Source of the DNA: Pseudonocardia asaccharolytica DSM 44247 = NBRC 16224
GTDB lineage: Bacteria > Actinomycetota > Actinomycetes > Mycobacteriales > Pseudonocardiaceae
Direction: 5' to 3'
Assembly: GCF_000423625.1 (NCBI RefSeq)
Contig: NZ_AUII01000004.1
Coordinates: forward strand, 124,001 to 188,000
DNA: 64,000 bases
Below the pieces are notes generated by a model. That model was not told the DNA's origin. It searched no databases and saw only the letters and a list, made by a program, of their open reading frames with translations. The stretch's first letter is position 1, and each line of letters starts with the position of its first letter. The position numbers and the translations under genes are program-made. Positions 20,300-44,849 of the stretch are shown here, piece by piece.

Positions 20300-20389
20300 A
20301 TGACGGACGCTCCTGCCGCGAACGTCGAGAGACTGCTGTTCGATCACGCCCGGCACAGGGTTCCCGCAGCGGCCGGGCCCCGGCCATGA
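20300..20389 (+). CDS. Possible 29-residue leader-like ORF before cobB
   Basis: An ATG at 20300, three bases after the aldo/keto reductase stop, opens a 29-codon frame (MTDAPAANVERLLFDHARHR, then VPAAAGPRP) whose TGA overlaps the cobB ATG (ATGA). The arrangement would couple translation of the two genes. No relatives are recognised, and the call rests only on position. Confidence 0.3.
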   Translation: MTDAPAANVERLLFDHARHRVPAAAGPRP

Positions 20390-21759
20390 CCGCGCGCGCC
20401 CTCGTCGTGTCCGCGCCCGCGTCGGGCAGCGGCAAGACGACGATCGCCACCGGCCTGATGGCCGCCCTGCGCCGCCGGGGTACGCCGGTGGCGCCGTTCA
20501 AGGTCGGCCCGGACTACATCGATCCCGGCTACCACACGCTCGCCGCCGAGCGACCGGGCCGCAACCTCGACCCGGTGCTGGTCGGCCGGGACCGGATCGG
20601 TCCGCTCGTGCGGCATGGTGCGGCGGGCGCCGAGGTGGCCGTCGTCGAGGGTGTGATGGGCCTGTTCGACGGGCGGTTGTCCGACGGCGGCGGCTCGACC
20701 GCGCAGGTCGCGGGCCTGATCGGGGCGCCCGTGGTGCTGGTGGTCGACTGCCGTGGACAGAGCCGCAGCCTCGCGGCGCTGCTGCACGGCTTCCGTTCCT
20801 TCGACGACGAGGTGCGCGTCGCGGGGGTGATCCTCAACCGGGTGGGCAGCGCGCGGCACGAGGCCGTGCTGCGCGCGGCGGCCGACGAGGTCGGCCTGCC
20901 GGTGCTCGGCGCGGTCCCTCGGCGGGCGGAGCTCGCCGTGCCGTCGCGGCATCTTGGCCTAGTCACCGCGGTCGAGCACGGCGCGGCGGCCACGGCGGCG
21001 GTGGACGCGATGGCGTCGCTGGTGGCCGAGCACGTGGATCTGGACGCGGTGGTGCGGCTCGCCCAGCCGCTGCCGGCCGGCCCCGCCTGGAGCGCGGTCG
21101 ACGCGGCCTGTGAGTGCGTAACAGTGCTAGAACACTGTTACGCACTCACAGGCACGGAGCGTCCGGTGGTCGCCATCGCCGGGGGACCCGCGTTCACGTT
21201 CGGGTACGCCGAGCACGTCGAACTGCTCGAGGCAGCGGGCGCGCGGGTGGTGGTGGTCGATCCGCTGCGCGACGAAACGCTTCCCGAGGCGACGGCGGGA
21301 CTGGTGCTGCCCGGCGGGTTCCCGGAGGAGCACGTCGCCGCGCTGAGCGCGAACGCCTCGCTGCGAACGGCCGTCGCGGCACTCGCCGCGTCCGGGGCGC
21401 CCGTGCACGCGGAGTGCGGGGGTCTGCTCTACCTGTGCGCCGACCTCGACGGGAAGCCGATGTGCGGGGTGCTGCCCGCATCCGCCGGGATGAGCGGGCG
21501 GCTGACGCTGGGCTACCGCGAGGCGGTCGCCCTGACCGGCTCGCCCGCGTTCGCGGTGGGGCGGCGGGTGCTCGGACACGAGTTCCACCGCTGCGCGGTG
21601 ACTCCACGGGCCGGGACGACGCCGGCGTGGGGATGGCGCGGGGCCGACCCGGAGGGGTTCGTCTCCGCGGGCGTCCACGCCTCGTTCCTGCACACCCACC
21701 CGGCGGGCGTGCCGGACGCCGTCGCGCGGTTCGTGGCCGCCGCGGCGCGACCGCGGTGA
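20386..21759 (+). CDS. cobB: Cobyrinic acid a,c-diamide synthase CobB
   Basis: A 457-residue glutamine-dependent amidase that amidates the a and c side chains of (hydrogeno)byrinic acid. The N-terminal ATPase domain shows SAPASGSGKTTIATGLMAAL, APFKVGPDYIDPGYH and VEGVMGLFDG; the C-terminal amidotransferase domain shows VAIAGGPAFTFGYAEH, LVLPGGFPEEH, the nucleophile in HAECGGLLYL (about Cys344) and GHEFHRC. Between the domains (about residues 241-256) the coding sequence is a perfect palindrome, read as ECVTVLEHCYALTG. It overlaps its neighbours on both sides (ATGA, GTGA). Confidence 0.93.
   Translation: MTARALVVSAPASGSGKTTIATGLMAALRRRGTPVAPFKVGPDYIDPGYHTLAAERPGRNLDPVLVGRDRIGPLVRHGAAGAEVAVVEGVMGLFDGRLSDGGGSTAQVAGLIGAPVVLVVDCRGQSRSLAALLHGFRSFDDEVRVAGVILNRVGSARHEAVLRAAADEVGLPVLGAVPRRAELAVPSRHLGLVTAVEHGAAATAAVDAMASLVAEHVDLDAVVRLAQPLPAGPAWSAVDAACECVTVLEHCYALTGTERPVVAIAGGPAFTFGYAEHVELLEAAGARVVVVDPLRDETLPEATAGLVLPGGFPEEHVAALSANASLRTAVAALAASGAPVHAECGGLLYLCADLDGKPMCGVLPASAGMSGRLTLGYREAVALTGSPAFAVGRRVLGHEFHRCAVTPRAGTTPAWGWRGADPEGFVSAGVHASFLHTHPAGVPDAVARFVAAAARPR
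21107..21152. repeat. Perfect palindromic element B2 inside cobB
   Basis: Two perfectly complementary 20-base arms (left arm CCTGTGAGTGCGTAACAGTG) enclose the six-base loop CTAGAA. It matches element B1 at 18626-18665 but has no mismatch. It is translated in frame within the domain linker of CobB. A hairpin this strong in an mRNA could slow ribosomes or stop transcription. Confidence 0.9.
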
Positions 21760-35772: not shown

Positions 35773-36909
35773 ATGACGAACGCAGCGGCGCTGTTCGACG
35801 CGCTGTCCGGCGCGGATCGGGTCTCGACCCGGCTCGACGACGCGGCGTGGATCCGCGCCCTGCTCGCGGTCGAGGTCGCGCTCTCCCACGCCGCCGCCGC
35901 CCACGGCCTCGTCCCGGCCGCCGACGCCGACCGGATGGAGCAGGCCGCGGCCGGCCTCCACATCGACCCCGCCGCACTGGGCCGGGCCGCCGTCGAGGGC
36001 GGGAACCCGGTGATCCCCCTGGTCCGGCTGCTGCGCACCGCGGCGGGCGCCGCCGCGGCCGCCGTACATCCCGGGGCCACCAGCCAGGACGTACTGGACA
36101 CCGGGCTGGTGCTGCTCGTCCGGTCCGCGGCGGACGTCGTGCTCGACGATCTCGGCGCCGCCGCCGACGCCGCCGCGGTTCTGGCCGCGGCGCACCGGGA
36201 CACGCCGATGATCGCCCGAACCCTCGGCCAGCAGGCGCTTCCCACGACGTTCGGGGCGGTCGCCGCGGGATGGTCCGCCGGGCTCGACCGGGCGCGGCGC
36301 CGGCTGAGCGCGGTCGTCGGCGGGCTGCCGGTGCAGTTCGGCGGCGCCGCGGGCACCCTGGCGGCCTCCTACCCGCACGGGCCCGCCGTCGCCGACGCGC
36401 TGGCCGACCGGCTCGGGCTCGCCCGCCAGGGCGTGCCATGGCACACCGAGCGGACCCGGATCGGCGAGCTCGCCGGCGCGCTCGGGGTGGCCGCCGGGGC
36501 GTGCGCGAAACCCGCGGCCGACGTCGTCGCGCTGGCGGCGACCGAGCTGGGCGAGGTCAGCGAGGCCGCGCCGGGAGACTCCTCGTCGATGCCGCACAAG
36601 CGCAACCCCATCGCCGCGATCACCGCGCGCGCCTGCGCCCGGCGGGCCCCCGGTCTGGCCGCGACACTGCTTGCGGCCATGGAGCACGAGCACCAGCGCG
36701 CCGCGGGCGCCTGGCACGCCGAATGGGAGAGCCTCACCGACCTGCTGCGCGCCACCGGTGGGGCGGCCGCCCGGCTGCGCGTCTGCCTGTCGGGGCTGCA
36801 GATCCACCCCGAGGCGATGGCGCGCAACCTCCGGCCGAACGCCGCCGAACCCGGCCGCCATCACGCCGCAGACCTCGTCGACCGGATCCTGGCCGCGCGA
36901 GCCTCGTGA
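35773..36909 (+). CDS. pcaB: 3-carboxy-cis,cis-muconate cycloisomerase PcaB
   Basis: A 378-residue member of the fumarase/aspartase superfamily. The signature GDSSSMPHKRNPIAAITA is the flexible catalytic loop of the cycloisomerase/adenylosuccinate lyase group. VHPGATSQDVLDTGLVLLV and ARTLGQQALPTTFG are the other conserved blocks. PcaB lactonises 3-carboxy-cis,cis-muconate in the protocatechuate branch of the beta-ketoadipate pathway. The length is somewhat shorter than the usual 430-450, as in some actinomycetes. The IclR gene follows after four bases. pcaGH, pcaC and pcaD are not in this window. Confidence 0.88.
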   Translation: MTNAAALFDALSGADRVSTRLDDAAWIRALLAVEVALSHAAAAHGLVPAADADRMEQAAAGLHIDPAALGRAAVEGGNPVIPLVRLLRTAAGAAAAAVHPGATSQDVLDTGLVLLVRSAADVVLDDLGAAADAAAVLAAAHRDTPMIARTLGQQALPTTFGAVAAGWSAGLDRARRRLSAVVGGLPVQFGGAAGTLAASYPHGPAVADALADRLGLARQGVPWHTERTRIGELAGALGVAAGACAKPAADVVALAATELGEVSEAAPGDSSSMPHKRNPIAAITARACARRAPGLAATLLAAMEHEHQRAAGAWHAEWESLTDLLRATGGAAARLRVCLSGLQIHPEAMARNLRPNAAEPGRHHAADLVDRILAARAS

Positions 36910-36913
36910 CGTC

Positions 36914-37681
36914 ATGACACTGCCGCGCACCGACTACGTCCAGTCGCTGGCCCGCGGGCTGGCCGTCATCCGCGCGTTCGACGCCGAGCACCCCGAACGC
37001 ACCCTCTCCGACGTCGCCCGCGCCACCGATCTCACCAGGGCGGCGGCGCGGCGGTTCCTGCTCACCCTGGCCGAGCTCGGCTATGTGCGCACCGACGGCC
37101 GGTTGTTCGCGCTCACCCCTCGGGTGCTGGAGCTGGGCTATTCCTACCTGTCCAGCCTCACGCTGCCCGAGGTCGCCGCGCCACATCTGGAGGCGCTGTC
37201 GCGGGCGGTGGGCGAGTCTGCGTCGATGTCGGTGCTCGACGGCGGCGACGTCGTGTACGTCGCCAGGGTGCCGACCTCACGGATCATGACGGTGGCGATC
37301 ACGATCGGGACCCGGTTCCCCGCCTTCGCGACGTCGATGGGACGGGTGCTGCTCGCCGCGCTGCCGCCCGCCCGGCTCGACGAGGTGCTTGCCGAGCTGG
37401 AGCTCCGGCAGCTCACCGCGCACACTCTCACCGACCTCGACGCGCTGCGCCGCGAGCTCGAGACGGTCCATGCGGCCGGGCATTGCCTCGTCGACCAGGA
37501 GCTCGAGCTGGGCCTGCGTTCGGTGGCCGTCCCGGTGCGGGACCGGTCGGGCACGGTGGCGGCGGCCGTGAACGTCAGCACCCAGACGTCCCGGGGCACG
37601 CCGGAGGACCTGCGGCGCGACATGCTGCCCGCGCTGCGGGCCTGCGCCGTCGCCATCGAAGCCGACCTGCGCACCACCTGA
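36914..37681 (+). CDS. IclR family regulator, PcaR-like
   Basis: A 255-residue regulator. The winged helix is at residues 8-70 (YVQSLARGLAVIRAFDAEHP, then LSDVARATDLTRAAARRFLL, then LGYVRTDGRLFALTPRVLEL); the IclR effector domain follows (VARVPTSRIMTVAITIGTRF, FPAFATSMGRVLLAALPP, SVAVPVRDRSGTVAAAVNVS). This is the PcaR/PobR branch, which responds to beta-ketoadipate or aromatic acids. It follows pcaB directly, so probably controls pcaB and pcaIJ; a candidate operator is at 35067-35081. Confidence 0.9.
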   Translation: MTLPRTDYVQSLARGLAVIRAFDAEHPERTLSDVARATDLTRAAARRFLLTLAELGYVRTDGRLFALTPRVLELGYSYLSSLTLPEVAAPHLEALSRAVGESASMSVLDGGDVVYVARVPTSRIMTVAITIGTRFPAFATSMGRVLLAALPPARLDEVLAELELRQLTAHTLTDLDALRRELETVHAAGHCLVDQELELGLRSVAVPVRDRSGTVAAAVNVSTQTSRGTPEDLRRDMLPALRACAVAIEADLRTT

Positions 37682-37689
37682 CCCCCCGT

Positions 37690-37755
37690 GAGTCGCGGTA
37701 TTTCCGAGCGCGAGTCGGGGTGTTTCCGTGACCGAGCCGGGGTGTTTCCGCGAGC
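37690..37755. repeat. 22-bp tandem repeat, family A, copy 1 (three units)
   Basis: Three units of 22 bp follow each other exactly, starting GAGTCGCGGTATTTCCG at 37690, GAGTCGGGGTGTTTCCG at 37712 and GAGCCGGGGTGTTTCCG at 37734. The same unit recurs at 48754 and 62534 on the same strand. This copy lies eight bases after the IclR stop. Confidence 0.9.
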
Positions 37756-37817
37756 GAACCGGCCCGCCGGCACGGGTCGTCGCCGCCGAGACCGTGGACC
37801 CGAGGCACACTCGCCGG

Positions 37818-38873
37818 GTGGCCGAACGAGTCCTGACCCGACGCCGACTCAACCGGGCCCTGTTGGCCCGCCAACTGCTGCTGGACCGCGCGGCGCTCAC
37901 CCCGGCCCGCGCGGTGGAGCGGGTCGGCGGGCTGCAGACGCAGTACGCCCCATCGGGCTACATCGGGTTGTGGTCGCGGCTGGCGGGGTTTCGCCGCGCG
38001 GATCTCACGCGGGCGCTGGAGCGGCGCCGGATCGTCCAGGGCTGGGTCATGCGCTGCACCATCCACATGGTCTCCGCGCGCGACTACGTCCCGCTCATCG
38101 AGGCGGTCCGCGCCGAGCGGCGCCGCTGGTGGCTGCGGACGCACAAGGAGCTGGCCGTGGTCGGCATGCCCGCGGTCGCGGCCGCGGTGCGTCGCCACCT
38201 CGCCGACGGCCCGCGCAAGCAGGCCCAGCTGGTCGAACTGCTCGCCGCGGACGGGTTCCCGCGGGAGGTGTTCCCGGGCGCGCAGCTGTGGGTCGACCTC
38301 GTCCGCGTCCCGCCCGCCGGCACCTGGGAGAGGCCGCGGGCGCATGTCTACGGGCTGGCCGAGCAGTGGCTGCCGGACGGCGCCGCCGACCGGCAAGCGG
38401 CCGAGGAGCTGCTGGTCACCCGGTACCTGCGCGGCTTCGGCCCGGCCTCGGCGAGCAGTATCGCGCGGTTCTGCGGGTTTCCGGTGACCGCGACCCGGGC
38501 GGTGCTCGGCCGCCTCGAGCTGCGCCGGTTTCGCGCCGAGTCGGGGGAGGAGCTCGTCGATCTACCCCGTGCTCCGCTGCCCGACGCGAACACCCCGGCG
38601 CCGGTGCGTTTCCTGTCCACGTTCGACGCGGTGCTGCTGCTCGGGCATGCCCGGCGCGCCGGAATCGTGCCCGAGGAGCACCGGTCGAAGCTCTTCGACC
38701 CCGCGAGACCGCAGTCGGTGCCGACCTTTCTCGTCGACGGCCGGGTCGCCGGCACCTGGCGCTGGGCAGACGACCGCGTGCGGTGGGAGCCGTTCGACGA
38801 GCTCGCGGCGCCGGTGCGCAGGCAGGTGGCGGAGGAGGCGGAACGGCTGGCCGCCTTCCACACCGATACGTGA
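37818..38873 (+). CDS. Winged-helix DNA-binding domain protein (HTH_42 / YcaQ-like)
   Basis: A 351-residue protein starting VAERVLTRRRLNRALLARQL. GGLQTQYAPSGYIGLWSRLA, MRCTIHMVSARDYVPLIEAV and the later VRFLSTFDAVLLLGHARRAG are typical of the HTH_42 family of winged-helix proteins. This family includes AlkX/YcaQ-type glycosylases that unhook DNA interstrand crosslinks, so a role in DNA repair is possible but not shown. The GTG at 37818 is chosen at the family start; the upstream frame runs into the 22-bp repeats. Confidence 0.82.
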   Translation: MAERVLTRRRLNRALLARQLLLDRAALTPARAVERVGGLQTQYAPSGYIGLWSRLAGFRRADLTRALERRRIVQGWVMRCTIHMVSARDYVPLIEAVRAERRRWWLRTHKELAVVGMPAVAAAVRRHLADGPRKQAQLVELLAADGFPREVFPGAQLWVDLVRVPPAGTWERPRAHVYGLAEQWLPDGAADRQAAEELLVTRYLRGFGPASASSIARFCGFPVTATRAVLGRLELRRFRAESGEELVDLPRAPLPDANTPAPVRFLSTFDAVLLLGHARRAGIVPEEHRSKLFDPARPQSVPTFLVDGRVAGTWRWADDRVRWEPFDELAAPVRRQVAEEAERLAAFHTDT

Positions 38874-39004
38874 GCAGCTCATGCGCCGCCCGATGACGCT
38901 TGCGGCGCTCAAACGTCGGTGCGGGACGAGCCTTACGGGTCGATTGACCGGGCAGGTAAGAATGGACGGACCATGACCACGGATCGGCGCCGCAAGGAGA
39001 CTGC

Positions 39005-40378
39005 ATGACGCCCCCTCAGCCACGAGTGGCGGTGATCGGGGCCGGTCCGTCCGGGCTCTACGCCGCCGCGTCGCTGCTCGGATCCGGCCTCGACAGCGGG
39101 ATCAGTGTCGACGTGATCGACCGCCTTCCCGCTCCCTACGGTCTCGTCCGCTACGGGGTGGCGCCCGATCACGTGAAGATGAAGTCGGTCATCCGGGTGC
39201 TGCGCAAGCCCTTCGACCTGGCCGAGGTAAGCTTTCTGGGCAACGTCCGGGTGGGTCGCGAGCCAGGGGTGCCGTTCGACGAGCTACGCGAACATTACCA
39301 CGCCGTCGTTTACGCCACCGGCAGCACGGTCGACCGCACCCTCGGGGTCCCCGGCGAGCAGCTCGCCGGCAGCCTGGGCTCGGGCGAGTTCGTCAGCTGG
39401 TACTGCGGGCATCCCGACTTCGTCCGGCTCGACCCGCCGCTCGACCACCCGGGCGTCGCGGTCGTCGGGGCCGGCAACGTCGCGCTCGATGTCGCGAGGG
39501 TGCTGGCCAAGAGCCACGAGGAGATGTCCTCGACCGACATCCCCGACCCGGTGCTCGAGGCGCTCACCCACAGCCGCGTCCGCGATGCGCATGTGCTGAT
39601 CCGCCGCGGCCCCCAGCATGTCCGGTTCACCCCCGCCGAGCTTCGCCAGATCGGTGAGCTGGCCAACGCCGACGTCATCGTGCACGACGACGGGCTGTTC
39701 GCGGCCGGGGCCATCGACATCGAGCAGATCGACGAGCGCCGGCAGCGGCAGAACCTCGAGATGCTCAGCGCATGGGCCGCGAAGGGCACCGCGGGGACCG
39801 GTAAGCCGCGGCGTATCCACCTGCGGTTCCTGCGCAGTCCGGTGCGGTTGCACGGGGAGAACGGCCGGGTGTCGTCGGTGGTCGTCGAGCGCAACGAGAT
39901 CGTCGACGGACGGGTGGTCGGCGGCGGGGAGCAGGAGAGTCTCGACGTCGGCCTGGTCGTCCGCGCGATCGGCTACGCCGCCGAACCCATCCCGGGGCTG
40001 CCCTTCGACGAGGCCACCGGCACCGTGCCCAACGAGGGCGGCCGGGTGGTTCGCGACGGCGAGCCGGTGCCGGGCGTGTACGTCGCCGGGTGGATCAAAC
40101 GCGGGCCGACCGGTGTGATCGGCACGAACAAGGGCGACGCCGCCGAGACCGTCGCGGCGTTGCTGGCGGATCTGCCCACGCTGCCCGAGCCCAAGCAACC
40201 CGACCGCGACATGCTGCTGGCGACGTTGGCCGGGCACGGCGTCCAGCCCGTCGACTGGAGCGACTGGCTCCGCCTGGACGCCGAGGAGATCCGGCTGGGC
40301 GAGGTGCGCGGCGGCGCGGAGCGGGTGAAGGTCGCCGAGCTCAAGGAGATGCTGGCGGTCTGCCGGCCCGCAGGGTAG
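39005..40378 (+). CDS. fprA: Ferredoxin-NADP reductase FprA (adrenodoxin-reductase type)
   Basis: A 457-residue flavoprotein. The FAD loop is RVAVIGAGPSGLYAAASLLG, the active-site region PYGLVRYGVAPDHVKMKSVI, the NADP loop VAVVGAGNVALDVARVLAKS, and the C-terminal flavin segment VYVAGWIKRGPTGVIGTNKG. It passes electrons between NADPH and ferredoxin, for instance for P450 enzymes. The length matches mycobacterial FprA. AAGGAG precedes the ATG. A very long palindrome follows the stop. Confidence 0.95.
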   Translation: MTPPQPRVAVIGAGPSGLYAAASLLGSGLDSGISVDVIDRLPAPYGLVRYGVAPDHVKMKSVIRVLRKPFDLAEVSFLGNVRVGREPGVPFDELREHYHAVVYATGSTVDRTLGVPGEQLAGSLGSGEFVSWYCGHPDFVRLDPPLDHPGVAVVGAGNVALDVARVLAKSHEEMSSTDIPDPVLEALTHSRVRDAHVLIRRGPQHVRFTPAELRQIGELANADVIVHDDGLFAAGAIDIEQIDERRQRQNLEMLSAWAAKGTAGTGKPRRIHLRFLRSPVRLHGENGRVSSVVVERNEIVDGRVVGGGEQESLDVGLVVRAIGYAAEPIPGLPFDEATGTVPNEGGRVVRDGEPVPGVYVAGWIKRGPTGVIGTNKGDAAETVAALLADLPTLPEPKQPDRDMLLATLAGHGVQPVDWSDWLRLDAEEIRLGEVRGGAERVKVAELKEMLAVCRPAG

Positions 40379-40425
40379 CCGCCCGGCCGTGGGCCGTCCC
40401 GGCCCGATGAACCCACCCCGCGTGA

Positions 40426-40488
40426 TGATCGTTGTTCGGGAGCCGGTAGCCGCGATATTCGCGGCTACCGGCTCCCGAACAACGATCA
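40426..40488. repeat. Perfect palindrome with 30-bp arms between fprA and the ACT-like gene
   Basis: The left arm begins TGATCGTTGTTCGGGAGCCG and the right arm is its exact complement; the loop is only three bases (TAT at 40456-40458). It lies in the intergenic region of two convergent genes. As RNA it would be an extremely stable hairpin on either strand, so it may act as a bidirectional terminator; the length and perfection are more than a terminator needs. Confidence 0.95.
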
Positions 40489-40533
40489 CAGCGGGAAGCG
40501 GGTCGGGCAGCGCAGGTCAAGCGGGTTCGCGGC

Positions 40534-40812
40534 TCAGCCGGGGTCGACGGCGATGACAGCGGGGACGGAGCACAGGCGGGCGACGAGCCGCTGTGCCTCG
40601 TCCGCGGTCATCGAGATCGTGCAGCTCAGCGAGCCATAGGCGACGCCTTCGCGGACATCCACGGAGAAGTCGCGGACCGGCAGGCCACAGTCCTGCAGCA
40701 CGCCGGCAACCTGCATGACGCCGGTCATGCCGCCGGAGGTGAGGATGTTGTGCCTGCGGTGAATGCGCGCGGCGATATCGGGGAACGGGCGGGTCTCGGA
40801 CAGGATGCTCAT
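40534..40812 (-). CDS. Small ACT-domain-like protein
   Basis: A 92-residue protein. After MSILSETRPFPDIAARIHRR the fold reads NILTSGGMTGVMQVAGVLQD, CGLPVRDFSVDVREGVAYGS, LSCTISMTADEAQRLVARLC and VPAVIAVDPG, which follows the beta-alpha-beta-beta-alpha-beta order of ACT domains. Such domains bind amino acids or other small ligands and usually regulate enzymes. It is free-standing here. Function unknown; the fold call is from pattern only. Confidence 0.7.
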   Translation of the reverse strand: MSILSETRPFPDIAARIHRRHNILTSGGMTGVMQVAGVLQDCGLPVRDFSVDVREGVAYGSLSCTISMTADEAQRLVARLCSVPAVIAVDPG

Positions 40813-41101
40813 GAACAGGCTCCGGCGGGTCCATGGGGAGGGAACCCGAGCCAGGTCTCGGTGATCACGAGGCGCCGCGGGGGTGGGCGGCGAGGGCGCG
40901 CGGGCAGCCTGGCTCAGCCGGCGCGCGAGGGTACTACCTCCGCGCGCGGAGCGATGGGCTCAACGATGCGCATGACCCAACCCTACCAACGGCCGCCGTC
41001 CCGCGGAACCCGGGCGGCCGAGGCGTCCCGGCTCCCGCGACCGCCATGGGTAGCATCCGCCAGGCCGTGCGGCAGCGGCCGGGACGAGTGATGGGAGATC
41101 G

Positions 41102-41860
41102 ATGTCGAGGCTGACGGGGTCCGTGGTGATCGTGACCGGCGGCGGGCGGGGGATCGGGGAGTCGATCTGCACCGAGCTGGCGAGCCAGGGCGCGGACGTC
41201 GCGGTCGCCGACCTCGACGAGCGCGCTGCCGCCACCGTCGCGGCCTGCCTCGCGCAGCGGTACGGCGTCCACACGCTCGGGGTCGGGGCCGACGTGACCG
41301 ATCCCGGCGCCGTGCGGGCCGTGGTCGACGCGGCGGAGTCCGAGCTGGGTCCGGTCACCGGCCTGGTCAACAACGCCGGCATCGACGTCATCGGCCGCTT
41401 CGTCGACTCCACCCCGGACACCTGGGACCGGCTGATCGACGTCAACCTCAAGGGGACGATCGGGGTCACCCGGGCCGTGCTCGACGGGATGATCGCGCGT
41501 TCCGCCGGGCGTATCGTCAACATCGCCTCCGACGCGGGCCGGGTCGGTTCCTCGGGGGAGGTCGTCTACTCCGCGACCAAGGGCGGTGTGATCGCTTTCT
41601 CCAAGGCGCTGGCCCGCGAGGTCGCCAAGGAGCACATCACGGTCAACGTGGTCTGCCCCGGCCCCACCGATACCGCCCTGCTCGATCAGGTCGCGGAAGC
41701 CAGCCAGAAGCTCTACGACGGCCTGGCGAGGGCGGTTCCGATGCGCCGGATCGCGCAGCCTGCCGATATCGCGCCCGCGGTGGCCTTCCTGCTCTCGCCC
41801 GGCGCGGGCTACATCACCGGCCAGACCCTGTCGGTCTCCGGTGGCCTGACCATGGTCTGA
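41102..41860 (+). CDS. Short-chain dehydrogenase/reductase
   Basis: A 252-residue classical SDR. The cofactor loop is VIVTGGGRGIGESICTELAS, followed by VNNAGIDVIGRFVDSTPDTW. The catalytic Ser-Tyr-Lys lie in RIVNIASDAGRVGSSGEVVY and SATKGGVIAF. The C-terminus has GYITGQTLSVSGGLTM. The Asp after the second strand (VADLDE) suggests NAD preference. The sequence resembles 2-hydroxycyclohexanecarboxyl-CoA or 3-hydroxyacyl-CoA dehydrogenases; substrate unsure. It converges with qcrB. Confidence 0.93.
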   Translation: MSRLTGSVVIVTGGGRGIGESICTELASQGADVAVADLDERAAATVAACLAQRYGVHTLGVGADVTDPGAVRAVVDAAESELGPVTGLVNNAGIDVIGRFVDSTPDTWDRLIDVNLKGTIGVTRAVLDGMIARSAGRIVNIASDAGRVGSSGEVVYSATKGGVIAFSKALAREVAKEHITVNVVCPGPTDTALLDQVAEASQKLYDGLARAVPMRRIAQPADIAPAVAFLLSPGAGYITGQTLSVSGGLTMV

Positions 41861-41955
41861 GGTCCGGTCGCGCACCCCGCGAACCGGGCGGTGGCGACGG
41901 TCTCGCCGGCGGCGTCGGTCAGCACGAGCTGGGCCGCCGGAGGCTGCCGGTATCG

Positions 41956-41993
41956 AGCTGGGCCCCGCCGGATCACGCCGGCGGGGCCCAGCT
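41956..41993. terminator. Bidirectional terminator hairpin between the SDR gene and qcrB
   Basis: AGCTGGGCCCCGCCGG (41956-41971) pairs perfectly with CCGGCGGGGCCCAGCT (41978-41993) around ATCACG. The two flanking genes converge on it (stops at 41860 and 42013). There is no clear U tract. Confidence 0.75.
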
Positions 41994-42012
41994 GCGCGCT
42001 ACGGCCGAACCG

Positions 42013-43713
42013 TCAGTCGGTCGTGCCCTTCGGGCGCCCGCCATCGGGGCGGCCGGCGAGCGCGGCCCGCTCATGGTCGATGGTGTCGCCCTCGATGCTG
42101 CCGTAGCGGGTCTTCTCGGCGGCCACCTCCTCGGCCCTGGCCCGTTCCAACGCCGCAGACTCCTCGACCGGGTCGGGGGTGAGCAGCGATCCGGGCACCG
42201 GGGCGCCCGCCGAACCCAGCTGGTTCATCCGCTTGGGCACCGGGGCGCCCTGGTATTCCAGCGGGATCGGGTGGCCGTGGGAGTCCACCCCGGCCAGCGG
42301 CTGGTGCACCTCGATGAACGCGCCGTGCGGCAGCCGCCGGATGATGCCGGTCTCGATGCCGTGCTCGAGGACCGCCCGGTCGTGGCGCTGCAGGCCGAGG
42401 CAGATCCGGTAGGTCACCCAGTAGGCGATGGGCGGGACGAGCAGCGCGCCGATCCGGCCCGCCCAGGTGGTGGCGTTGAGCGAGACGTGGAAGAAGTAGG
42501 CGATCCAGTCGTTGATGCCGCTGAGCACCAGCACGGCGTAGAACGAGATCGCCATGACGCCCAGGGCGGTCCGCACCGGCGCGTCCCGCGGCCGCTGCAA
42601 CAGGTTGTGCAGCGCGTTGTCCTGGGTGAACTTGCGTTCGACCGCCGGGTACACCGCGGCGAGGACGAACAGCAGCGGCAGGAACGCGGCCGTGGCGAGG
42701 AACGCGCCCGGGATCGTGTAGTTGCCGAGGTAGAACTCCCACGGCGGGAAGATCCGCGCCATGCCCTCGGTGAACAGCACGTACCAGTCCGGCTGCGAAC
42801 CGGCCGAGATCTGCGCTGCGTTGTAAGGACCGATATGCCAGATCGGGTTGATCTGGAAGATACCGGACATCATCCCGATGACGCCCACGGTGACGGCGAA
42901 GAACGCGCCGCCCTTGGCCGCGAACGTCGGCAGGATCCGCACCCCCACCACGTTGTTCTCGGTGCGGCCCGGGCCGGGGAACTGGGTGTGCTTCTGGTAC
43001 CAGACCAGCCCGACGTGCACGGCGATGAGCGCGAGCAGGATCCCGGGCAGCAGGAACACGTGCGCGATGTAGAACCGCGGGATGATCTCGTTACCGGGGA
43101 ACTCGCCGCCGAACAGCAGCCAGTGCACCCAGGTGCCCATGACCGGGACGGTCATCGTGATACCGGACATGATCCGCAGGCCGGTACCCGAGAGCAGGTC
43201 GTCGGGCAGCGAGTAGCCGGTGAGGCCCTCGAAGAACCCGAGCAGGATCAGCACGACGCCGATCATCCAGTTCGTCTCGCGCGGCTTGCGGAACGCGCCG
43301 GTGAAGAAGGTGCGGAACATGTGGGCGACCATCGCGGCCATGAACAGCAGCGCCGACCAGTGGTGGACCTGCCGTACGAACAGCCCGCCGCGGACCTCGA
43401 GGGAGATCTGCAACGTGGTCTCGTAGGCCCGGGACATGGTCACGCCGCGGAGCAGGTCGAGCGGCCCGTCGTAGACGACCTCGGCCATCGAGGGGTCGAA
43501 GAACAGCGCGAGGTAGGTGCCCGAGGCCAGCAGCACGATGAACGCGTAGAGCGCGATCTCACCGAGCATGAACGACCAGTGCGTCGGGAAGACCTTGTTG
43601 AACTGCCTGCGCATCCCGGCGGCCGGATGAAACCGCTGGTCGAGCTCGTCGAGTGCGGCTGCGGCCTTGGCTGCGCCGCCGGGGCTGCCGGTGGGGGTGG
43701 TGATCGAGCTCAT
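42013..43713 (-). CDS. qcrB: Cytochrome bc1 complex cytochrome b subunit QcrB
   Basis: A 566-residue membrane protein. Haem ligands and quinol sites lie in [40 protein letters not shown] and [40 protein letters not shown] contains a variant of the PEW quinol-site motif (PDW). The hydrophilic C-terminal extension of about 120 residues is typical of actinobacterial QcrB. It takes electrons from menaquinol in the bc1-aa3 supercomplex. It is the last gene of ctaE-qcrCAB; its start overlaps the qcrA stop. Confidence 0.96.
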
Positions 43714-44849
43714 GGTCTCCGCTCCCAGAAGGCCGGGCCGACGGCTTCGATGAAGTCACTGCGGGCGACGAAGTAACCCTCATCGTTGACCGTGATGGGC
43801 AGTTGTGGCAGGGGCCGGGTGGCCGGGCCGAAGATCGGCTTGGCGTACTCGGTGGCCAGGAACTGTGACTGGTGGCACGGGCACAGGATGCGGTTGTCCT
43901 GCGCCTGGTACAGCGAGGTCGGGCAGCCCAGGTGGGTGCAGATCTTGGAGAAGGCGTAGTAGTCGCCGTAGTTGAAGTCCTCCTGGCCGGGCCGCTTGAC
44001 GACCTGCGTTCCCGGGCGCAGCCGGATGAGCATGACCGGGGTGTCGGAGGCGCGCTGGGCGTGCAGCAGGGCCTCCTTGTCGCCGCGCTCGGACTCCCGG
44101 AACGGGAACACCGTCTGCATCGAGCCCGGCGCCATGTCCTCGGGCCGGATCCTGGCGATCTCGCCGAGCACGCCGGTGTCGGTGCGCAGGTAGACCGTCT
44201 CGCCGTTCACCGGACGCCAGGGGGTGACCCACAGGGCGGCCTGGTCCCCGCCTTTCCACGGGTTGCGGACCAGGGGGGCGATCGCGGCGATGCCCAGCCC
44301 GATGCCGAACAGCCCCGCGGCGGCACCCGCAGACCGCTTGATCATCGAACGGCGGCCGATCGTGGTGTCCTTGCCGGCCTGCACCAGCTGGGCCACCACG
44401 GTCTTGCGCGCCACCTCGTCCGAAGGGCCGTCGTGGCGCTGCTGCACCGAGACCTCGTCCGGGAAGAACTTCTTCACATACGAGATGACGGCGATGCCCA
44501 GCGCCAGCACCGCGAAACCGAACGTGAACCCGATGACCGGGGTGTAGAGGCTGTAGAGCGTGTGGCCCGGCTCGAAGGGGCTGACGTACTCGTGCGGCCA
44601 GGCGATGAACGCGACGATGAACGCCAGGCCGGAGAGTGCCGACAGGATGAACCACGTGGCGACCGTGCGCTCGGCGCGCTTCTCGGCTCTGGTGCCGGGG
44701 ACCGGGAACTTGCGCGTGTTGTGGACGACCTCGACGTCGTCGAGCTCCGAGGCGAGGCGGGCGAGCTGCTCCTGCGACATGTCCTCGAGCTCGTGCTCAG
44801 CAGGATGGCCGGTTCCGCCACCGGACCCGTGCGGGCGTCCTGTGGTCAT
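43710..44849 (-). CDS. qcrA: Cytochrome bc1 complex Rieske iron-sulfur subunit QcrA
   Basis: A 379-residue protein with three predicted membrane helices ([59 protein letters not shown]), as in other actinobacterial Rieske proteins. The 2Fe-2S ligands are in [20 protein letters not shown] followed by CPCHQSQF. The ATG at 44849 overlaps the qcrC stop (ATGA); an upstream in-frame start would read into qcrC. It carries electrons from menaquinol to the cytochrome c domain. Confidence 0.96.

Follow-up and report, generated by a model that had tools for sequence, protein, structure and literature searches.

The window analysed here is a 64-kb stretch (C4:124001-188000) of a Pseudonocardia genome of 5.05 Mb, which is assembled in 71 contigs. 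A pyridine-nucleotide-disulphide oxidoreductase gene is located on its plus strand at 39005-40378 (Pfam PF07992 over the cut-off); we read this gene as ferredoxin-NADP reductase-like, its product giving partial NCBIfam matches, every one below the cut-off. It converges on a minus-strand gene at 40534-40812 without assigned family, the 92-aa product of which has zero Pfam or NCBIfam matches. In several relatives the reductase gene is likewise followed by a small minus-strand gene, the DNA of which matches the gene at 40534-40812. The middle of the 155-bp gap between these convergent genes is occupied by a perfect 63-bp palindrome at 40426-40488, comprised of a 30-bp left arm (40426-40455, plus strand), the loop TAT (40456-40458, plus strand), and a 30-bp right arm (40459-40488, minus strand) that is the exact reverse complement of the left arm, with zero mismatches. 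The oxidoreductase stop codon lies 47 bp upstream of the palindrome, and the stop codon of the 92-aa gene 45 bp beyond it. Among the listed inverted repeats of the window, with arms at most 200 bases apart, this is the longest, the next-longest perfect one having 21-bp arms. An earlier note on this DNA had described a perfect palindrome with 30-bp arms and a three-base loop, placed between convergent genes, and both descriptions are confirmed.

A simple scan of 36500-44500 gave no sigma-70-like promoter, and a scan of the same region gave no intrinsic terminator-like site, i.e. no GC hairpin followed by a T-tract. Searching Rfam with 40000-41200 returned eight matches at E <= 1, five of them to microRNA models and all below the gathering score. 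Folded as RNA, the 155-nt gap reaches -113.5 kcal/mol (z -10), and none of 200 dinucleotide shuffles was as stable.

The palindrome is one copy of a dispersed 63-bp palindromic repeat family in Pseudonocardia. The genome count of a 20-mer that the earlier note had suggested finds exact matches at both arms of one site only in the 5.05 Mb, and this count was rejected as a copy-number test for being too strict: the resulting label "single copy" is misleading because full-length relatives, although diverged, are recovered by a 63-bp blastn search and by a covariance model. A member of a large diverged family can thus pass for single-copy in an exact k-mer count. Diverged copies were found by blastn in this genome and in two other searched genomes, both Pseudonocardia, and eight copies among the blastn matches were used to make the covariance model (R1). 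The model gave 123 matches in this genome, most elements being matched on both strands, which correspond to about 61 elements down to E 3.5e-5, plus three weaker matches. The figure of 61 is a lower bound because the best 150 of 9530 first-look candidates were scored; in a fully scanned 400-kb sample of this genome, nothing scored above 21.5 bits. The window copy, itself one of the eight sequences from which the model was built, is the top-scoring copy of the genome, reaching 84 bits on one strand and 83 on the other.

Sixty of the 61 elements were read (C1:55807 and the three weaker matches were left out), of which 55 are 63 bp and five are 62 bp long. Pairwise identity among them has a mean of 0.70 and a maximum of 0.90, and therefore points to no recent burst of the family. 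Their consensus is TGATCGnCGTTTsGGmGsCGssrrCCGCG-n5-CGCGG...CCsAAACGnCGATCA, with the columns GATC, GG, and CCGCG near invariant on both arms and the columns between these blocks often limited to two letters (C/G or A/C), a conservation that is somewhat inflated because the search model scores pairing and these same blocks. The copies are preceded by CA in 29 and followed by TG in 34 of the 60 cases, flanks that look like extended symmetry rather than a direct repeat. Plasmid and phage collections gave zero blastn matches to the 63-bp element, and in the open-licence PMC literature none of the matches listed describes a family of this kind in Pseudonocardia. Scattered half-sites comparable to DNA-uptake sequences were considered and rejected, nothing else in the window scoring above 19.1 bits with the model. 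Perfect fold-backs can be artefacts, and a fold-back chimera from assembly or amplification was considered as the origin of the window copy. Such an origin is very improbable, since the length, ends, and internal blocks of the palindrome are those of the 63-bp family at dozens of places, in other species too, and the sequence differs beyond its two ends.

To place the copies relative to genes, genes were called by codon usage, with the window as training set. The 60 copies comprise 23 in convergent gaps, 29 in co-directional gaps, four in divergent gaps, and four inside called genes. Gap statistics were calculated on the 56 copies outside called genes (the four others being left out), against all 63-bp placements in the gaps of 464 kb of this genome, i.e. 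the window and 20 hand-picked 20-kb stretches without any of the 61 listed elements. The copies are in excess in convergent gaps (23 of 56, 7.0 expected, p 8e-8), avoid divergent gaps (4 of 56, 22.8 expected, p 2.7e-8), and are about as frequent as expected in co-directional gaps (29 observed, 26.2 expected), convergent and co-directional gaps together holding 52 of the 56 copies. The copies lie at a median of 39 bp from the end of the closest upstream gene, compared to 100 for random placement, and in 10 of 52 cases (p 1.5e-11) the first TGA of the element doubles as the stop codon of the gene. The 63-bp copies are mostly located at gene 3' ends.

The earlier note had proposed a strong bidirectional terminator. 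Broadened to a bidirectional terminator or mRNA 3'-end stabiliser, in which selection keeps the hairpin itself and no U-tract is required, this explanation agrees with the position of the copies after stop codons and in convergent gaps, with the avoidance of divergent gaps, and with their strong folding, and stem-loop transcript ends without U-tract are described as common in Streptomyces clavuligerus (PMC8269248). T-tracts are not enriched after the copies, at least three T in the following 8 nt being found at 8 of 75 transcribed ends versus 13 of 132 in control gaps, and conservation of sequence and length across loci is something that a terminator would not need.

Several copies, moreover, are translated through in frame, which also counts against a terminator. 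Three of the 60 lie in frame inside well-scoring genes: one in a 2-oxoacid dehydrogenase E2 gene, within the linker of a protein that has lipoyl, E3-binding, and catalytic domains, one in a gene that we read as CobG/nitrite-reductase-like, and one at the end of a gene that we read as encoding a LuxR-like regulator. A fourth in-gene case has a weak gene call and a different frame. The E2 gene of Pseudonocardia bannensis (G032) carries an element in the same linker, and this copy and the three from the genome under study share one reading frame (e.g. QDRRSGAADREIRGSGRPTGDH and ADQRPGAASRADRGSVLPTADH). The 63 bp correspond to 21 codons, and the shared frame avoids TGA.

A second palindrome family was observed in the same genome. 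A palindrome with 21-bp arms at window positions 21106-21153 lies inside the plus-strand gene 20386-21759, identified as cobB (cobyrinic acid a,c-diamide synthase, NF002204 over the cut-off), where it is translated in frame without a stop (...AACECVTVLEHCYALTGTERPVV...). It belongs to a family of the form GTGAGTGCGTAACAGTG-n6-CACTGTTACGCACTCAC (e.g. L121, L125, L138, and L154), whose arm occurs 134 times in forward and 132 times in reverse orientation at no more than one mismatch, with 94 exact hairpins; the exact hairpin was found in none of the 59 other Pseudonocardia genomes searched. The 24 sites that were read display an invariant core plus 0-8 bases that are locus-specific yet complementary, and none except the cobB copy falls within a called gene, most being located at gene ends. 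In another Pseudonocardia, G072 (L024), the gap after the reductase gene contains a long hairpin of a different kind, GTTCAGGAAAGCCACATTC..., which hints at further palindrome families.

The corresponding gap of relatives was examined for the 63-bp element, a check proposed in the earlier note. In Pseudonocardia sp. 73-21 (G062) the same gap contains an imperfect 62-bp element of 31 bits, and the element is absent from this gap in P. bannensis and P. acidicola (G013), the nearest species by reductase gene, whose stop-to-stop gaps of 49 and 24 bp, respectively, contain no hairpin. Across 63 other reductase loci, drawn from two collections that overlap in species, a copy above 30 bits was found downstream only in two records of 73-21, and one locus (L072) has a 19-bit match downstream of the reductase gene. 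Among 30 loci surveyed for the content of the gap, nine of which have no usable next gene, six possess a hairpin scoring 10-13; the presence of such a short GC hairpin instead of the element in the gap of some relatives (e.g. L014-L017, L021, and L038) speaks for the terminator explanation. Of 15 tested element loci of P. bannensis, two share neighbour genes with copies of the genome under study, namely the E2 gene and a cluster whose three elements agree in their order and in their spacing (1044 and 131 bp; 1088 and 132 bp). This low proportion indicates turnover rather than long-kept sites: turnover of the 63-bp copies is high, with some old shared copies.

Within the genus, 51 of 60 Pseudonocardia genomes (including the one studied here) have a match at E <= 1e-4 and 23 have at least 10 strand matches, with up to the best 89 candidates scored per genome. 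Many copies are present in G000, G007, G008, G028, and G062, and the genomes that gave no match are G010, G017, G022, G031, G064, G069, G073, G078, and G080. Among 149 genomes of the order from other genera, 18 reach E <= 1e-5, mostly with weak matches. Fifteen copies from other genera were read, five of which fall within called genes and resemble chance matches. Genome G194 possesses four copies of 61-63 bp that share the outer blocks and are located 5-89 bp downstream of a gene, and G122, from another genus, has a 57-bp palindrome with TGATCA ends (L296, G122:C9:314788-314844), flanked by two convergent genes at distances of 9 and 21 bp. A strict gapped pattern matched two of 394 genomes of the class (this genome and G239), and was set aside as too strict for describing the range.

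In the two genomes whose clusters were read (G028 and G008), the elements are arranged in tandem, with about 5 to 20 members per array, a few of which are weak matches. Spacers range from 23 to over 100 bp, most being 28-50 bp, and are alike within an array. Of eight clusters from these genomes, convergent gaps account for five and a co-directional gap for one, the remaining two being truncated where the stretch ends. The arrays look like the product of local tandem growth, as in BIMEs. An interpretation as integron attC sites or CRISPR was rejected, since the spacers of an array resemble one another and could not accommodate cassette genes. In one array (L241, G008:C39, 3075-4469) a higher-order period was observed, with triplets 92 bp apart that recur about every 350 bp.

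The dispersed copies and their high turnover between species, together with in-frame survivors in protein linkers, recall a functionless MITE-like element, which would be moved by a putative transposase, would owe its symmetry to a palindromic parent, and would be found at gene ends as a result of insertion survival. The earlier note had likewise offered a mobile palindromic element; the dispersal, turnover, and in-frame copies agree with mobility, whereas neither a transposase nor a target duplication nor a clean insertion was seen. We regard the functionless version as unlikely. A mean identity of 0.70 and a maximum of 0.90 leave no young burst, and neutral decay should affect all columns equally, whereas some columns are near invariant next to neighbours that are 50:50 C/G on both arms independently, a contrast for part of which the model-based selection of copies accounts. 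Neither a target duplication nor a matching transposon was seen, the PF01797 matches of this genome being an IS200/IS605-type gene and a fragment.

What distinguishes a selected hairpin from a symmetric DNA site is the relation between the two arms, for which pairs were counted on the 55 copies of 63 bp (the five 62-bp copies were left out). Watson-Crick pairs between the arms number 1131 of 1650, compared to 1132.8 +/- 12.4 when the right-arm letters are shuffled among copies; 562 of 1000 shuffles reach the observed count, and z is -0.65 to -0.84 when the copies are oriented at random (three trials). Overall, these 55 copies thus display no arm-to-arm covariation; pair 7/57 does covary (z 3.3), and pair 4/60, at near-invariant columns, has z 2.9. 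Swapping whole arms leaves the mean folding energy of the copies, about -36.8 kcal/mol (-36.75), unchanged (-36.16 +/- 0.81), and 28 co-directional copies, read on their sense strand, contain G-U and A-C mismatches in about equal numbers (57 versus 47, p 0.38). Seven array sets, each tested singly with only those array elements that are 63 bp long and in register, showed no pairing excess (z -2.1 to 0.9). The 17 best hits from other genomes do covary (z 8.0), a result set aside because taking one best hit per genome favours well-paired copies; if this bias is small, it counts against a DNA site. Arms without covariation are compatible with a MITE-like element, and argue against a terminator, as does the near equality of the two mismatch classes. 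We therefore consider the terminator or 3'-end stabiliser rather unlikely as an explanation for the family, while an RNA role may exist because of the mean folding energy of the copies.

Without covariation, the symmetry within this genome reflects position-specific preferences and not compensation. The left-arm and right-arm profiles are nearly the same at seven compared positions. In P. bannensis, C at position 12 increases from 10/55 in this genome to 9/13 on the left arm (p 7e-4) and from 7/55 to 8/13 on the right arm (p 6e-4), and position 11 changes similarly, giving a TT-to-CC shift on both arms, as measured on only 13 copies and at positions chosen after looking; 15 of the 24 P. bannensis elements were fetched, and the profile drops one of 62 bp and one at a contig start. 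The matching profiles and the shift on both arms therefore favour a dyad DNA site and a symmetric protein. Such a shift would fit a dimeric DNA-binding protein with changing specificity, and would fit equally well the re-spreading of a species-specific symmetric master copy.

The perfection of the window copy is exceptional in this family. It is the sole perfect one of the 55 copies, the other 54 having 15-25 of 30 pairs (mean 20.4, sd 2.4), and the chance of 30 of 30 pairs under arm independence is 9e-7; among 141 copies from several genomes, the runner-up has 27 pairs. The expectation that mutations soon blur such a palindrome is upheld by the low pairing of these 54 copies, which is also the reason to believe that the window copy was probably perfected recently. 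It carries four family-rare bases (positions 7, 8, 12, and 22; pooled frequency 0.04 to 0.14), each of them mirrored on the other arm. Template switching at quasipalindromes is described as a known mutation type (PMC7202029), and quasipalindrome correction by template switching as a process that perfects imperfect inverted repeats in one step (PMC8794818, PMC7202029); the mirrored rare bases seen here agree with such a process. One-arm copying is probably the best explanation for the window copy: a template switch during replication would have copied one arm onto the other, making it secondarily perfect. This process is a mutation and not an element family, and it is deduced here from the present state rather than from a parent copy. 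A shortened near-perfect fold-back with a shifted centre (L239:3928) has the shape that template switching would leave. A perfect palindrome may thus be a late copying event and no sign of selection for pairing.

For the family as a whole we lean towards a REP-like dyad DNA element read by a putative symmetric protein. The symmetry would be that of a site recognised, in double-stranded or extruded form, by a putative dimeric or tetrameric protein, which may be a chromosome or topology protein, as proposed for REP/BIME, or an enzyme that spreads the element. Copies would be retained where their harm is smallest, directly after stop codons and between convergent genes, and the stable hairpin in the RNA would be a side effect, which may also contribute to transcript ending. 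More tentatively, gene ends in Pseudonocardia, especially those between convergent genes, may be marked by an undescribed symmetric protein of chromosome organisation or recombination, which would have the 63 bp as its site, would have rare relatives in other Actinomycetes, and would shift its specificity jointly on both half-sites per species. In REP-like repeats it is difficult to separate the roles of hairpin structure, recognition by a transposase, and binding by a protein; a fixed length, with arms that are independent within a genome yet apparently co-shifting between species, separates a symmetric DNA site from a base-paired hairpin on sequence evidence alone, and the 63-bp element offers a defined probe to fish for the protein.

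Among known systems, the REP/BIME repeats tagged with GTAG or CGTC are described as short palindromic sequences, mostly extragenic, between convergent or co-directional genes, the ends of which often provide a stop codon (TAG), with some copies in genes and with clusters (Di Nocera et al. 2013, PMC3733652); the main text of that paper mentions neither Actinobacteria nor Pseudonocardia nor Streptomyces. The 63-bp family resembles them in being palindromic and extragenic, in its convergent and co-directional placement, in its stop-codon ends (TGA here), and in its in-gene copies and clusters. It differs in size (63 bp instead of REP units of 20-40 bp) and in its symmetric TGATC...GATCA ends, present in nearly all listed copies, in which no unpaired GTAG or CGTC tag of the REP type was found by inspection. 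A RAYT-driven REP was rejected as a reading, no RAYT being found via PF01797 in this genome, where just one IS200/IS605-type gene and one fragment match and no 63-bp element lies within 1.5 kb of either; the CGTC REPs are likewise described as having no dedicated transposase (PMC3733652). The IS200/IS605-type element (L246, G000:C16) is an ordinary one with a Y1 transposase gene (PF01797, 147.8 bits), and we read the adjoining gene as tnpB. Rickettsia palindromic elements (RPE), in-frame palindromic repeats of about 150 bp in unrelated genes and mostly intragenic (PMC10969869), are called to mind by the in-frame copies of the 63-bp family, and differ from it in length and in location, most copies here being extragenic, with three clear in-gene cases in 60. 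The hairpin transcript ends without U-tract of GC-rich bacteria (PMC8269248) are similar in having a GC-rich stem-loop after genes, and differ from the present family, whose loci share a conserved sequence and length and whose paired positions do not covary. From these comparisons, the 63-bp family appears to behave more like REP/BIME repeats than like a plain terminator.
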